Positions 1,027 through 5,123 of a stretch of DNA of 5,123 nucleotides are shown here, piece after piece. The number at the start of each line of letters is the position of its first letter. Position 1 is the first letter of the stretch. The position numbers and the translations under genes were made by a program. The notes beneath the pieces were generated by a model. It was not told where the DNA came from. It did no database searches and saw nothing but the letters and a program-made list of their open reading frames with translations. The stretch comes from Chloroflexota bacterium (lineage in GTDB: Bacteria; Chloroflexota; UBA6077; CF-72), in assembly GCA_019242065.1 (NCBI GenBank), contig JAFAWJ010000045.1, positions 1 to 5,123 of the forward strand, written 5' to 3'.

Positions 1027-2365
1027 CTGCCTTCTCCTCGCCAGCGAGGCCGCGAATGCGCTCGACGCGCGGCGCGATGTCGCTCGCCTCGAATCCCTGA
1101 TCGCCGGGCGCGTAGAACCGCCGCCCCACCAGATTTTCTGGCACGTACGTTTGCGTCCAGCGCCGCGGGTCGTCGTCCACAAAATCGTGGCTGTAGCGAT
1201 AGTCACGCCCGTAGCCCATGCCGCGCATCAAGCCAGTCACCGCGTTGCGCAGGTGCAGCGGCACCGGATCGTTGCGTGTGTCCCGCACCGCGTCCATGGC
1301 CGCACTGTACGCGCGACCCACCGAATTCGACTTGGGCGCCGTCGCCAGATACAGCGTCGCCTCGGTCAGCGGAAACATCGCCTCGGGCATGCCCACGAAA
1401 TGGGCGGCCTGCTGCGCGGCCACGGCCACGCTCAACGCGTGCGGATCAGCCAGTCCAACGTCCTCGCCGGCCAGGATCACCAGGCGACGGGCGATGAACA
1501 TCAGGTCTTCACCGGATTCCAGCATGCGCGCCAGCCAGTACACCGCCGCGTCCGGATTCGAGCCGCGCACCGACTTGATGAACGCCGAGATGGTGTCGTA
1601 GTGCGCGTCGCCGGCCTTGTCGTAGACCAGCGCGCGCTGCTGTACCGCGTCTTCGATCAGCCCCAGCGTGATGGTCGACGAGTCGCCCGCCGCGTTCGCG
1701 GCGAGCTCCAGGGCGTTCAGCGCCATGCGCGCGTCGCCGTTGGCGCGTTCGACCAGGTGCTTGACCGCCGGCTCCTCGATGTGCAGGCCGCGGCTGCCCA
1801 GACCCCGGTCGGCATCGACGAGGGCGCGGCGCACGATGGTCTCGACGTCCGCGTCGCTCAGCGCCCGCAGCGTGAACACGCGGACACGTGATAGCAGCGC
1901 TGCGTTCACCTCGAAGCTGGGATTCTCGGTGGTTGCCCCGATGAGCGTCACCGTGCCGTTTTCGGCGTGCGGCAGCACGGCATCCTGCTGCGCCTTGTTC
2001 CAGCGGTGGACTTCATCGATAAACAGGATGGTGCGCTGGTCGGCCGCGCGCCGCGCTTCGTCGACGACCTTGCGCAGGTCGGCCACGCCCGCGGTGACGG
2101 CCGAGAGCGCCACGAAGCGCGAGTGGCTGAGTCTGGCGATCACTTCGGCAAGCGTCGTCTTGCCCGAGCCCGGCGGACCCCACAGCAGCATGCTGGGGAC
2201 GCGGTCGGCTTCCAGTGCGCGGCGCAGGGCGCGGCCGGGCGCCAGCAGGTGGTCCTGGCCGAGGATCTCGTCGAGCGTCCGCGGGCGCATGCGCGCCGCC
2301 AGCGGCATGCCGGCCGCCGCGGCCGCCTGGCGTGGATCCGAAAACAGCGGCGCCTGCGCGTTCAC
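1019..2365 (-). CDS. rarA: Replication-associated recombination protein A (RarA/MgsA), AAA+ ATPase
   Basis: This is a complete 448-residue protein, the usual length for RarA, a clamp-loader-like AAA+ ATPase that acts at stalled replication forks and single-stranded/double-stranded DNA junctions. The conserved N-terminal block PLAARMRPRTLDEILGQDHL (21-40) is followed by Walker A GPPGSGKT (63-70), Walker B ILFIDEVHRWNK (113-124), sensor 1 GATTENPS (143-150), the arginine-finger region SRVR (159-162) and sensor 2 GDARMALN (210-217). The C-terminal tetramerisation domain typical of RarA/WRNIP1 follows, with RGSNPDAAVYWLARMLESGED (267-287), EDVGLADPHAL (301-311) and ENLVGRRFYAP (410-420). All catalytic motifs are intact. 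The start is GTG at 2363-2365. No good Shine-Dalgarno precedes it, but the next in-frame Met (20) leaves almost nothing before the conserved block, and other RarA proteins have a short leader with a similar LFS-type segment. The stop overlaps the downstream M20 gene. Identification is firm. Confidence 0.97.
   Translation of the reverse strand: MNAQAPLFSDPRQAAAAAGMPLAARMRPRTLDEILGQDHLLAPGRALRRALEADRVPSMLLWGPPGSGKTTLAEVIARLSHSRFVALSAVTAGVADLRKVVDEARRAADQRTILFIDEVHRWNKAQQDAVLPHAENGTVTLIGATTENPSFEVNAALLSRVRVFTLRALSDADVETIVRRALVDADRGLGSRGLHIEEPAVKHLVERANGDARMALNALELAANAAGDSSTITLGLIEDAVQQRALVYDKAGDAHYDTISAFIKSVRGSNPDAAVYWLARMLESGEDLMFIARRLVILAGEDVGLADPHALSVAVAAQQAAHFVGMPEAMFPLTEATLYLATAPKSNSVGRAYSAAMDAVRDTRNDPVPLHLRNAVTGLMRGMGYGRDYRYSHDFVDDDPRRWTQTYVPENLVGRRFYAPGDQGFEASDIAPRVERIRGLAGEEKADG
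1030..1039 (-). promoter_or_regulatory. Ribosome binding site of the M20 hydrolase gene, inside the end of rarA
   Basis: Read leftwards the bases are GAGGAGAAGG, ending 3 nt before the ATG at 1026; the GAGGAG core lies 7 nt before it. This purine run is also the codons for the Gly-Glu-Glu-Lys near the RarA C-terminus. It supports the ATG at 1026 over the next in-frame ATG (Met13). Confidence 0.7.
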
Positions 2366-2500
2366 TGCCGTGGGAGGCTACCAGTTCTGTCTTCTGACTT
2401 CTTCGTGTGGCATACTTGCGGTGCCGTCCTCGAGGCCCCGTGACGGGTGGCACGGTGGGATTTCGGCGCAGGTCTGGAGGAGGATCAAAGACCCACGGTC
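2366..2500. promoter_or_regulatory. Divergent intergenic region between rarA and the sigma-54 activator gene
   Basis: These 135 bp separate two divergent genes, so promoters in both directions are expected. Rightwards, the best candidate is an extended -10-like TGG-CATACT at 2408-2416 (4 of 6 matches to TATAAT plus an upstream TG), with no convincing -35 at normal spacing. I see no clear promoter for rarA. A purine run GGAGGAGG at 2476-2483 resembles a ribosome binding site but ends 17 nt before the ATG at 2501, too far to be ideal. If translation instead began at the in-frame GTG 2447, this run would be coding. An 11-bp palindrome is listed separately. Confidence 0.4.
2437..2447. repeat. 11-bp palindrome in the divergent intergenic region, possible operator
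   Basis: The sequence is CCCGT-G-ACGGG, two perfect 5-bp arms around one base. It lies about 20 bp downstream of the tentative -10 element and between the two divergent genes, where an operator would make sense. A palindrome this short is also expected by chance in GC-rich DNA, so the call is weak. Confidence 0.25.
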
Positions 2501-3931
2501 ATGGTTGCACGCGCACAACGTAAGGCGCGCCCCGCAGAACAGCAAAGCGACCGCCCGATCCAGACCAGACGCATCCTCATCGCCGACGACGACGCGGCCA
2601 TCCGTGGCACCCTCGTCGAGCTCCTGCAGAGCGAGGGCTACGACACGCTCCAGGCCAAAAGCGGCAGCGAGGTGCTGCGCATCGTGCCCGTCGAGGAGCC
2701 CGATCTGCTGCTCATCGACCTGCGCATGCCGGACCAGGACGGCATCCAGATCCTGAAGCGCCTCTCGGCCCAGGACATCAACGTCGGCAACGTCATCTTG
2801 ATGACCGCTTACGGCACGTCCAGCACCACGATCGAAGCGATGCACCTGGGCGCCTACGACTACATCACCAAGCCCTTCGACATCGATCGGGTGCTGTTCA
2901 CGATCCGTCGCTACTTCGAGCGGCAGCAGCTGGCTCAGGAGCTCGTCCGCAGCAAGCAGGAAAACAAGGCCCTCTCGGAGCGCATCGTCGGCAACACGCC
3001 CCAGATGCTGGACGTCTACAAGATGATCGGCAAGGTCGCGGCTTCGGACGCGAACGTACTGATCATCGGCGAGACCGGCGCCGGCAAGGAGTCGGTGGCC
3101 GAGATGCTGCACGAGTATTCGACGTACTCCAAGGGACCGCTGGTCAAGGTCAACCTGACCGCCCTGCCGGCCACGCTCATGGAAAGCGAGCTGTTCGGCC
3201 ATGAGAAGGGCTCGTTCACCGGCGCCGACCGCCAGCGCATCGGTCGCTTCGAGATGGCCCACAAGGGCACGATCTTCCTCGACGAGATCGGCGACATGGC
3301 CCTTACCCTGCAAGCCAAGCTGCTGCGGGTGCTGCAGGAGCGCGAGTTCGAGCGAGTTGGCTCCTCCCAGTCGATCAAGGTCGACGTGCGCGTGGTCGCC
3401 GCCACCAATAAGGACCTGCGCGCCGAGGTCGAGGCCGGGCGCTTCCGCGAAGACCTGTATCACCGTCTGGCCGTCATCACCATCCACGTCCCGCCGCTGC
3501 GCGAGCGCAAAGAGGACATCCCGCTCCTGGTCGAGCATTTCCTGCAGAAGCACCGCTTCAGCGACGCCAGCGCGCCGGCGCGCATCAGCGAAGAAGCCCT
3601 GCAGCGCCTGATGGCGTACGACTGGCCGGGCAACGTGCGCGAGCTGGAGCACACCGTCGAGCGCGCGGTCGTCCTGGCCCAGGGCGGGGTCATCACCGCC
3701 GACCACCTGGCGATGGACGTCGATCGCGAAATCGCGATCATCGACCTGAACCAGCAGCTCACCGACGGCAAGACGCTGGCCGAGGTGCTCGCGGCGGTCG
3801 AGTCGCGCTACATGCAGCGGGCGCTGCTGCGCTCGGACGGCAACCGCCACGCCGCGGCCCGGCTGCTTGGCACGGATATTGCAACCATCGAGAAAAAGCT
3901 GGCGGAGCACGGTCTCGACGGTCGCGTCTGA
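2501..3931 (+). CDS. Sigma-54-dependent response regulator, NtrC family (receiver - AAA+ - Fis-type HTH)
   Basis: This 476-residue bacterial enhancer-binding protein uses ATP hydrolysis to open promoters held by sigma-54 RNA polymerase. The receiver domain (about 23-140) has acidic-pocket Asp30/Asp31, phosphoacceptor Asp73 in LIDLRMP, Thr102 and Lys124 (ITKPFD), so phosphorylation control is expected; no histidine kinase is in the window. The AAA+ domain (about 162-395) has Walker A GETGAGKE (190-197), sigma-54 contact loop GSFTGA (237-242, usually GAFTGA), Walker B TIFLDE (257-262), FREDLYHRL (315-323) with the arginine finger, and WPGNVREL (375-382). The C-terminal Fis-like segment GNRHAAARLLG (447-457) is clear, but the following recognition part TDIATIEKKL lacks the basic residues usual here. 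The start is uncertain: ATG 2501 places the receiver 22 residues in; GTG 2447 would add 18 residues with no recognisable conservation. The specific target cannot be named from the protein, but the next genes are a likely one. Confidence 0.94.
   Translation: MVARAQRKARPAEQQSDRPIQTRRILIADDDAAIRGTLVELLQSEGYDTLQAKSGSEVLRIVPVEEPDLLLIDLRMPDQDGIQILKRLSAQDINVGNVILMTAYGTSSTTIEAMHLGAYDYITKPFDIDRVLFTIRRYFERQQLAQELVRSKQENKALSERIVGNTPQMLDVYKMIGKVAASDANVLIIGETGAGKESVAEMLHEYSTYSKGPLVKVNLTALPATLMESELFGHEKGSFTGADRQRIGRFEMAHKGTIFLDEIGDMALTLQAKLLRVLQEREFERVGSSQSIKVDVRVVAATNKDLRAEVEAGRFREDLYHRLAVITIHVPPLRERKEDIPLLVEHFLQKHRFSDASAPARISEEALQRLMAYDWPGNVRELEHTVERAVVLAQGGVITADHLAMDVDREIAIIDLNQQLTDGKTLAEVLAAVESRYMQRALLRSDGNRHAAARLLGTDIATIEKKLAEHGLDGRV
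3722..3739. promoter_or_regulatory. Perfect inverted repeat inside the activator gene, candidate enhancer (upstream activating) site
   Basis: The repeat is GATCGCGA-AA-TCGCGATC: two perfect 8-bp arms around two bases, covering codons 408-413 of the activator gene. Its centre is about 139 bp before the -24 GG of the sigma-54 promoter at 3868-3883 and about 163 bp before the predicted transcription start. Sigma-54 activators normally bind dyad-symmetric sites roughly 80-200 bp upstream, so symmetry and distance both fit. What is seen is the repeat and its position; binding by the local activator is inference. Chance repeats of this quality are not rare across 5 kb. Confidence 0.4.
3868..3883 (+). 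promoter_or_regulatory. Sigma-54 (-24/-12) promoter embedded in the 3' end of the activator gene
   Basis: The bases TGGCACGGATATTGCA match the sigma-54 consensus TGGCACG-N4-TTGC(A/T) at every defined position. The -24 GG is at 3869-3870, the -12 GC at 3881-3882, and the required 10 bp lie between them. Transcription would start near 3894, giving a leader of about 87 nt before the membrane-protein ATG at 3981, with rpoN next. The site lies over codons 456-461 of the activator. The Ile460 codon is ATT, the only non-ATC isoleucine codon of 31 in that gene, and it supplies the TT of the -12 element. A 12-position match with correct spacing is unlikely by chance in 5 kb (about one in a thousand for both strands with even base composition). 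Confidence 0.75.
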
Positions 3932-3965
3932 TGCTTTCCGTTTCGTACGCTTGTTGAACTACGCG

Positions 3966-3975
3966 AAGGGAGAGG
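3966..3975 (+). promoter_or_regulatory. Ribosome binding site of the small membrane-protein gene
   Basis: AAGGGAGAGG ends 5 nt before the ATG at 3981; the GGAG core lies 8 nt before it. It fixes this ATG as the start rather than the upstream in-frame ATG at 3867, which lies inside the activator gene. Confidence 0.75.
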
Positions 3976-3980
3976 ACACG

Positions 3981-4322
3981 ATGGTTGACGAAGGTAGCGG
4001 CGCGTACGCCAGCTCGAAACCCTGGGAAGATCGCGGCGGACGCGCCATTGGCACCGTCATCGCCGCCGCGCTGGCGGCGGGTGTTATTGCCTTTATTTTG
4101 CGCCGCTCGCGCGCGGAAGAGGAAATCGAAGAGCCGAGCAATCAGCTGGCCAGGCTTGCGCGCGATTGGGCCAGCAGCGACAGCGTGGAAGCCGGCCGCG
4201 AGTTTGTCATGGACAAAATTGTCCCCGAGCTGAAGCCTGCCTTGTTGTCGGCACTCTCAGAAATTGAAGACATCGTCGACCAGGCCTTTCGGCGCATCGA
4301 GAAGAACATCAAGAAGCTGTAA
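3981..4322 (+). CDS. Small single-pass membrane protein of unknown function, upstream of rpoN
   Basis: I do not recognise this 113-residue protein. A polar N-terminus (1-21) is followed by one hydrophobic segment AIGTVIAAALAAGVIAFIL (22-40), then RRSR and a charged, helix-prone tail (41-113) starting with an acidic patch (EEEIEE, 46-51). The basic residues after the membrane segment suggest the tail faces the cytoplasm. There is no cleavable-signal pattern and no cysteine. The tail, with spaced hydrophobics from 54 to 110, looks amphipathic and may bind a protein or the membrane surface. The start is set by a good ribosome binding site. The gene lies 49 nt after the activator and ends 5 nt before rpoN, so it is probably cotranscribed with rpoN, from the embedded sigma-54 promoter among others. 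By analogy with Psp-type systems it might report envelope state to the activator, but nothing in the sequence proves this. It has a loose resemblance to small YtxH-like membrane proteins, without a clear motif. Confidence 0.85.
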   Translation: MVDEGSGAYASSKPWEDRGGRAIGTVIAAALAAGVIAFILRRSRAEEEIEEPSNQLARLARDWASSDSVEAGREFVMDKIVPELKPALLSALSEIEDIVDQAFRRIEKNIKKL

Positions 4323-4327
4323 TCCGT

Positions 4328-5123
4328 ATGACGATGGAGCTGGAGCTCGATCTCGGCCAGGAGTACTCGCCGAATCAGACGCTCAAGGTCTCGCCTCGAC
4401 TGGTCGCGGCCAATTACATCCTCGAGCTGTCCTCTCAGGAGCTCCAGCAACAGATCGCCACCGAGCTCAACGACAATCCCGCCCTCGAGCTCGTCGAGGT
4501 GCCGACCTGCCGCATCTGCGGCACCGAGCTGCAAGGGTCGATTTGCCCGCGCTGCATCCAGCGCCAGAAAGGTAGCTCGTCGAGCAGCACCTACGGACCC
4601 GAGGGCAGCGGTTACGGCTACGACGACGGCGATACGCGCGGCCGGTCGTCAGACGACGAAGACTTTGATCCGCTGACGCGGGTCGCGTCCGAGCAGACAC
4701 TCAGCGAAAAGCTGCTGATGGACATGGGCGCGGCGCTGCCCGAGGAGGACATGCCGATCGCCGAGTACCTGGTCGGCAGCCTGGACGAAAAGGGCTATCT
4801 GGCGATCAAGATCGAGGACGTCGCCTACGAGCTCGACGTCTCGATCGACACGGTGCGCGCCGTGCTGCGCGTGCTCCAGGCCCAGGAGCCGATCGGCATC
4901 GGCGCCCGCCGCCTGAGCGAGTGCCTCCTCATCCAGATCGACCACCTCGAAGAGCGCGGCCTGTCCCAGCCGCACGCCCGCGAGATCGTCAGCCAGTTCC
5001 TGACGGAGCTCGGCGAGCACAAGTTCGGGCGCATCGCGCACGAGCTCAAGATCTCGCAGCAAGAGGTCTCCGACGTCTGGGAGTTCGTCAAGAGCAAGCT
5101 CAACCCGCACCCGGCCCACGGTT
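4328..5123 (+). CDS. rpoN: RNA polymerase sigma-54 factor (RpoN) with zinc-ribbon insert, C-terminus cut by window edge
   Basis: The frame is open from ATG 4328 to the window edge: 265 codons of a protein usually 430-500 long. Sigma-54 directs polymerase to -24/-12 promoters and needs an ATP-using activator. Region I (about 14-56) is recognisable from LKVSPRLVAANYILELSSQELQQ..TELNDNPALE but diverged from the usual TPQL-x-QAI-x-LLQ form. Next comes a four-cysteine knuckle, C61-x2-C64-x8-C73-x2-C76, then a Ser/Gly/Asp-rich acidic linker (82-114) in the place of region II. The core-binding domain starts near DPLTRVASEQTLSEKLL (114-130), with SLDEKGYL (151-158) and EPIGIGARRLSECLLIQI (187-204), typical of sigma-54. 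The HTH and RpoN box are beyond the edge. There is no strong ribosome binding site; with a 5-nt gap after the membrane-protein stop, translational coupling is likely. ATG 4334, two codons later, is an equally possible start. Confidence 0.93.
   Translation, partial: MTMELELDLGQEYSPNQTLKVSPRLVAANYILELSSQELQQQIATELNDNPALELVEVPTCRICGTELQGSICPRCIQRQKGSSSSSTYGPEGSGYGYDDGDTRGRSSDDEDFDPLTRVASEQTLSEKLLMDMGAALPEEDMPIAEYLVGSLDEKGYLAIKIEDVAYELDVSIDTVRAVLRVLQAQEPIGIGARRLSECLLIQIDHLEERGLSQPHAREIVSQFLTELGEHKFGRIAHELKISQQEVSDVWEFVKSKLNPHPAHG

Follow-up and report, generated by a model that had tools for sequence, protein, structure and literature searches.

Organization of the rpoN locus

The analyzed DNA (5,123 nt, referred to below as the window) originates from an uncultured Chloroflexota bacterium and carries, on the + strand, three genes encoding in turn an NtrC-type activator, a putative membrane protein of 113 aa and the sigma factor RpoN. 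The main features of the locus are as follows:

2501..3931, + strand: gene of an NtrC-type sigma-54 activator (response regulator), whose translation contains receiver, AAA+ and Fis-type HTH parts (Pfam PF00072, PF00158, PF25601 and PF02954)
3966..3976, + strand: ribosome-binding-like sequence AAGGGAGAGGA, preceding the membrane-protein gene
3981..4322, + strand: gene of the putative membrane protein (113 aa; ATG at 3981), the first gene behind the predicted promoter
4328..5123, + strand: rpoN (sigma-54; ATG at 4328), cut by the end of the window (Pfam PF00309 and PF04963, AID and CBD)

The AAA+ domain of the activator matches PF00158 with an E value of 1.4e-70 (Pfam). Its translated loop, GSFTGA, is one residue off the GAFTGA motif, which agrees with an activator of the NtrC type, and HTH_8 (Pfam) spans aa 430-469. 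The product of the second gene, predicted from its sequence to be a membrane protein, matched no Pfam family; in the genomes G001, G002 and G003 this gene is also preceded by GGGAGAGGAC. The match of the window rpoN to NCBIfam TIGR02395 is below the cut-off, the gene being cut. The motif ARRTVAKYR, which we take to be the DNA-binding RpoN box, is located near the end of the RpoN of G001; the window gene stops before that part. At the genome level, an RpoN with this DNA-binding motif (read in the G001 protein) is thus accompanied by a sigma-54 activator. The RpoN protein also contains a zinc-ribbon-like CxxC...CxxC insert (window 4508-4555) between its activator-interacting and core-binding regions. 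This insert is present in the window and at 17 of the 20 rpoN loci of the class described below, while the other three were not read by the pattern; a literature search gave no paper on it among the matches listed.

A -24/-12 sequence within the activator gene

The consensus of sigma-54 promoters is TGGCAYR-N4-TTGCW. The sole exact match in the window, TGGCACGGATATTGCA, occupies 3868-3883 of the + strand and shows a ten-base spacing of GG and GC; no exact match occurred in 200 dinucleotide shuffles of the window. The sequence may be divided into the following elements:

3868..3874, + strand: -24 element TGGCACG, in the codons CTT GGC ACG (Leu-Gly-Thr)
3879..3883, + strand: -12 element TTGCA, in the codons ATT GCA (Ile-Ala)
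3894, + strand: predicted transcription start, derived from the spacing with C3882 taken as -12

The six codons concerned, CTT GGC ACG GAT ATT GCA (Leu-Gly-Thr-Asp-Ile-Ala), lie within the HTH (HTH_8) of the activator, and their ATT is the only one among the 32 Ile codons of this open frame. The site faces the membrane-protein gene (ATG 3981) and rpoN (ATG 4328), and the predicted leader, from 3894 to ATG 3981, comprises 87 nt. The initial annotation had described a consensus-perfect promoter sequence, placed it in the coding end of a sigma-54 activator gene and oriented it toward the membrane-protein gene and rpoN; the uniqueness of the match, its position in the HTH_8 part of ORF 2501-3931 and the predicted +1 lying 87 nt before ATG 3981 bear out all three statements.

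Orthologous loci with and without the site

Orthologous loci were located via the membrane protein. At the protein level, 66 activators show an identity of at least 71% (P0121-P0186). The class to which G001 belongs is represented by 29 genomes, those of the relatives being MAGs. The membrane protein was found in 14 of the 29 genomes, a relative of the activator (E <= 1e-90) in 18 and rpoN in 18. The activator gene directly precedes the membrane-protein gene in eight of them (G001-G004, G018, G020, G021 and G029). This comparison revealed that the window and six of the eight genomes with the gene pair (G001-G004, G018 and G020) have TGGCA[CT][AG]-N4-TTGC at identical codon positions. The codons of the window are shared by G001 and G002. 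They are replaced by CTT GGC ATA GAT ATT GCT in G003 and by CTT GGC ATA GAC ATT GCC in G004 and G020, G018 being alike except for a final GCG. The residue following Leu-Gly is therefore Thr (ACG) in three of the seven site-bearing sequences and Ile in four. This Ile is encoded in all four cases by the rare codon ATA, which in G004 (31 Ile codons) and G018 (27 Ile codons) is the only ATA of the open frame. The bases that change among the sites occupy positions that are open or two-fold in the consensus, with the exception of the last W. There, G004, G018 and G020 carry C or G, so that three of the seven sites match at only 11/12 positions, which counts against a promoter.

The lack of the site in two genomes with the gene pair, G021 and G029, also counts against this interpretation. 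G021 retains the order activator-membrane protein-rpoN, with codons for Leu-Gly-Leu-Asp-Leu-Gly and no intragenic site; its perfect site, TGGCACGGCTCTTGCA (12/12), follows the membrane-protein gene and precedes rpoN. In G029, rpoN is located approximately 45 kb from the activator gene and is preceded by two 11/12 sites, one before a BON-domain gene and the other between this gene and rpoN. G022, whose activator is encoded on another contig and retains a GG-N10-GC remnant, contains TGGAGCGAATCTTGCA (10/12) before the membrane-protein gene. It follows that in G021, G022 and G029 rpoN has another candidate site where the intragenic one is missing. In G018 the intragenic site is present and the contig ends before rpoN could appear, while in G024-G028, which encode the membrane protein, no activator gene was found before it and no rpoN was detected.

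Sigma-54 sites upstream of rpoN across the class

A scan of upstream DNA covered 20 rpoN loci in 18 genomes (22,852 bases). It revealed 16 sense sites matching at least 11/12 positions, distributed over 13 of the 20 loci; six of these sites are perfect. The numbers expected from Markov copies were 0.23 (at least 11/12) and 0.02 (perfect). The antisense strand of the same regions yielded no site of at least 11/12, and a single one was found when both strands of the rpoN bodies and of the DNA that follows them (44,889 bases) were examined. A same-strand sigma-54 promoter sequence upstream of rpoN, by which an autoregulated rpoN may be recognized, is thus present in the window and at 13 of the 20 class loci.

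Five of the 16 sites correspond to the intragenic site, two are located inside the membrane-protein gene (G003 and G004) and nine lie elsewhere (one each in G005, G006, G007, G008, G011, G021 and G023, two in G029). In G005, G007 and G011 (L070, L072 and L074) a gene encoding a HisKA kinase directly precedes rpoN and the sigma-54 site precedes the kinase gene; the G005 site overlaps the last bases of the preceding ORF. These may be kinases of the single activator discussed below. Three loci (G017, G022 and the second rpoN of G022) have only a 10/12 site, and no upstream site of at least 10/12 was found at four of the 20 loci (G012, G013, G016 and the second rpoN of G021; the G013 locus offered only 138 nt). 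Loci of both these kinds were counted against a promoter.

These data bear on what the intragenic site might serve. RpoN polymerase might bind at 3868-3883 and drive only the membrane-protein gene, or it might form a roadblock for read-through transcripts from the activator gene. Many intragenic sigma-54 sites of E. coli are without a known product, according to the available part of one report (PMC4591121). In a simple scan, which gave five terminator-like hairpins in total versus 1.5 in shuffles, three on the + strand fell inside the membrane-protein gene (4060-4080, 4076-4091 and 4184-4200), which speaks indirectly against a transcript extending into rpoN. The membrane-protein gene is also separated from rpoN by approximately 150 nt in G001; in the window, however, this gap is only 5 nt. 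Moreover, the sites of G021 and G023 are located shortly before rpoN itself, and those of G005, G007 and G011 before kinase-rpoN pairs. We consider a role other than rpoN expression improbable and favor a promoter that includes rpoN among its targets.

Consensus sites elsewhere in the genomes and a candidate enhancer

The genomes of eight relatives contain two to 12 exact matches to TGGCAYR-N4-TTGCW each (63 in total), and 24 matches to the reversed pattern. With so few exact sites per genome, chance is an unlikely source of one that lies near rpoN and points toward it. Among the 30 of the 63 sites that were inspected, three represent the intragenic site and 16 are outside called genes; many of the remaining exact sites lack a close downstream gene and may be background, given the 24 matches of the reversed pattern. 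In G001, G002 and G004 (L102, L108 and L095) exact sites are situated 31-63 bp before a gene for a conserved small Cys-containing protein, the L102 copy of which has no Pfam family. This gene is likely to be a further target of the same activator. In G020, an exact site lies 72 bp before the gene of a transglycosylase-associated membrane protein.

Among 400 genomes of the phylum, CTTGGCAYRGAYATTGC was found in ten, i.e. at six known loci and at four places elsewhere (G218, G335, G159 and G016). None of the latter four was taken as support; among them, L022 is in an unrelated long ORF and L025 is approximately 170 nt before an ORF.

The activator gene contains one further sequence that might take part in regulation:

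3722..3739, + strand: inverted repeat GATCGCGA-AA-TCGCGATC, a weak enhancer candidate at about -172 from the predicted +1

The repeat is kept in G001-G003 and imperfect in G004. The sequence GATCGCGAAATTGCGATC occurs at a single place in each of G001-G003, in the activator gene, and is absent from G004. We regard the dyad as a weak candidate for an activator-binding enhancer, because its outer arms have a probability of approximately 0.035 given the protein alone, G018 carries a different inverted repeat, and G020 has none with 8 bp arms.

Number of activators

Of the 19 genomes searched, 17 encode a single full PF00158 domain (E <= 7.1e-70); G011 has two partial domains and G023 none, and all other PF00158 matches have E >= 7e-9. 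These counts come from MAGs and are lower bounds, so activators may be undercounted. They suggest that the NtrC-type activator is the sole sigma-54 activator of the cell. If it is, opening of the rpoN promoter must fall to this protein, and the likely circuit is then autoregulation by the activator.

Only five further HTH_8 matches were detected in the same genomes. The recognition helix of the window activator, encoded at 3875-3901, reads DIATIEKKL, and some class members whose activator gene is not beside the membrane-protein gene have, for example, YRRLLYAKM. The absence of arginines from DIATIEKKL may indicate altered DNA binding.

Constraint on the codons of the site

It could be argued that the site is a by-product of coding, with Leu-Gly fixed in the helix, TGG-C following from CTT-GGC, and the rest due to chance and shared ancestry. 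Leu, Gly and Ala of this stretch are indeed invariant across 48 aligned activators, and the longer pattern also arises by chance, as in the unrelated ORF at L022. Against this stand the rare codons CTT, ATA and ATT, which occupy the required places in activator genes with a GC3 of 0.76-0.89. When each protein was recoded with its own codon use, the chance of the site was 2.6e-4 to 6.4e-3 per gene (window 6.1e-4; G001 6.4e-3; G002 5.9e-3; G003 1.7e-3; G004 6.4e-4; G018 2.6e-4; G020 4.2e-4), the seven values not being mutually independent. The protein tree gives good support to the G003/G004 clade as well as to the G018/G020 clade, and the T-ending codons common to the two amount to 1/24, 0/23, 1/12 and 3/12. 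With so few in common, the clades count as nearly two trials, and the presence of the site in both is not simply inherited codon choice. Furthermore, the site is absent from the activators of ten more class members (L060-L069), one of which, L062 (G022), has a remnant (GG-N10-GC).

Among 242 degenerate columns in which the residue is invariant, 41 are also codon-invariant. The only rare codons among these (<20% of synonymous use) are CTT at 3866 and ATT at 3878, both belonging to the site, the open positions of which do vary among orthologues. The initial annotation had proposed a comparison of synonymous-site conservation with the flanking codons. The conservation of the site is high in a sliding scan (rank 10/476 with windows of 5 codons, 36/478 with 6, 33/479 with 7) but not first, and it falls to 59/479 with 8 codons and 118/480 with 10, which we counted in favor of a by-product and against a promoter. 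Within the activator gene, synonymous conservation peaks at window 2975-3016, in the codons of SERIVGNTPQMLDV. Free variation of the GG/GC bases with the protein kept had been named as the finding that would speak against a promoter; the opposite was observed, the DNA core being kept in the window and six of the eight genomes while a residue changes. The core bases are thus kept beyond the demand of the protein, and we hold a mere by-product to be very improbable. Least probable of all is another DNA or RNA element resembling a -24/-12 sequence. In its favor, the identity between the window and G001 continues slightly past the site; against it, the GG/GC core is kept while an N4 base varies, and the same core recurs elsewhere before rpoN in the class.

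The proposed circuit

The conserved core, the upstream sites found class-wide in excess of expectation and the lone full activator domain of most genomes (17 of 19) support sigma-54 autoregulation from an intragenic promoter, as had been predicted for this locus. We estimate at about 0.82 the probability that 3868-3883 is a selected intragenic sigma-54 promoter for the positive autoregulation of rpoN. The activator gene, and perhaps rpoN, would receive basal transcription from upstream; no sigma-70-like site was found at 2300-5123 by a simple scan, which is not informative for Chloroflexota. RpoN polymerase would then bind at 3868-3883, in the HTH codons of the activator gene, and would be opened by the phosphorylated activator, probably the only sigma-54 activator of the cell. 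Transcription starting near 3894 would produce an mRNA for both the membrane protein and RpoN, i.e. the two genes would be co-transcribed. In this way RpoN would raise its own synthesis via its activator, closing a positive feedback loop.

A broader model may be put forward only tentatively, and we think it rather unlikely to hold in full. According to this model, the whole class would use a closed positive loop of one activator and one sigma-54; in one lineage, the activator coding sequence would contain the enhancer dyad as well as the -24/-12 promoter, the latter in the codons of the DNA-binding helix, so that promoter and helix would mutually constrain their evolution.

Comparison with known systems

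To our knowledge, Rrp2 of Borrelia and CtcC of Chlamydia are the sole sigma-54 activators of those systems. The Rrp2-RpoN system (PMC2940757) and that of CtcC (PMC7482065) resemble the present one in that sigma-54 is served by one activator, and the available parts of both papers describe no autoregulation of rpoN. CtcC is without a DNA-binding domain (PMC7482065, as far as its available text goes), whereas the activator described here has HTH_8.

Conserved intragenic sigma-54 promoters are known from E. coli (PMC4591121). They are similar in that a sense-strand site within a gene, conserved between species, drives the next gene; the E. coli leaders, in the available part of that report, measure 360-760 nt and the hosts are nagB and yqeC, in contrast to the predicted leader of 87 nt, the sigma-54 activator gene as host and rpoN downstream found here. 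Autoactivation of rpoN has been described for the nifU2-rpoN superoperon of Rhodobacter capsulatus (PMC6925177, citing Cullen 1994). There too, a sigma-54 promoter ahead of another gene and rpoN leads to autoactivation; unlike in the window, the activator is NifA, and no promoter inside the activator gene is described in the available portion of the text (PMC6925177). The location of rpoN behind sigma-54 promoters, with autoregulation, has been predicted in several bacterial classes (PMC12316311). The locus described here shares this arrangement, although neither Chloroflexota nor Chloroflexi appears in the main text of that study. Among the matches listed in a literature search confined to open-licence papers, no title or abstract opening reported the present arrangement.

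Neither an intragenic sigma-54 promoter nor autoregulation of rpoN is thus new; the novelty lies in their proposed dual coding in the DNA-binding codons of the activator itself. If the proposed interpretation is true, the locus would be a clean natural case of DNA with a double reading, in which the same bases encode the DNA-binding part of a regulator and form the promoter that this regulator opens; the rare codons together with the residue swap would show how the two requirements are reconciled. The interpretation further predicts an autoregulated, single-activator sigma-54 circuit in a phylum in which, according to the available part of one source, sigma-54 has been noted in only some members (PMC3162934).
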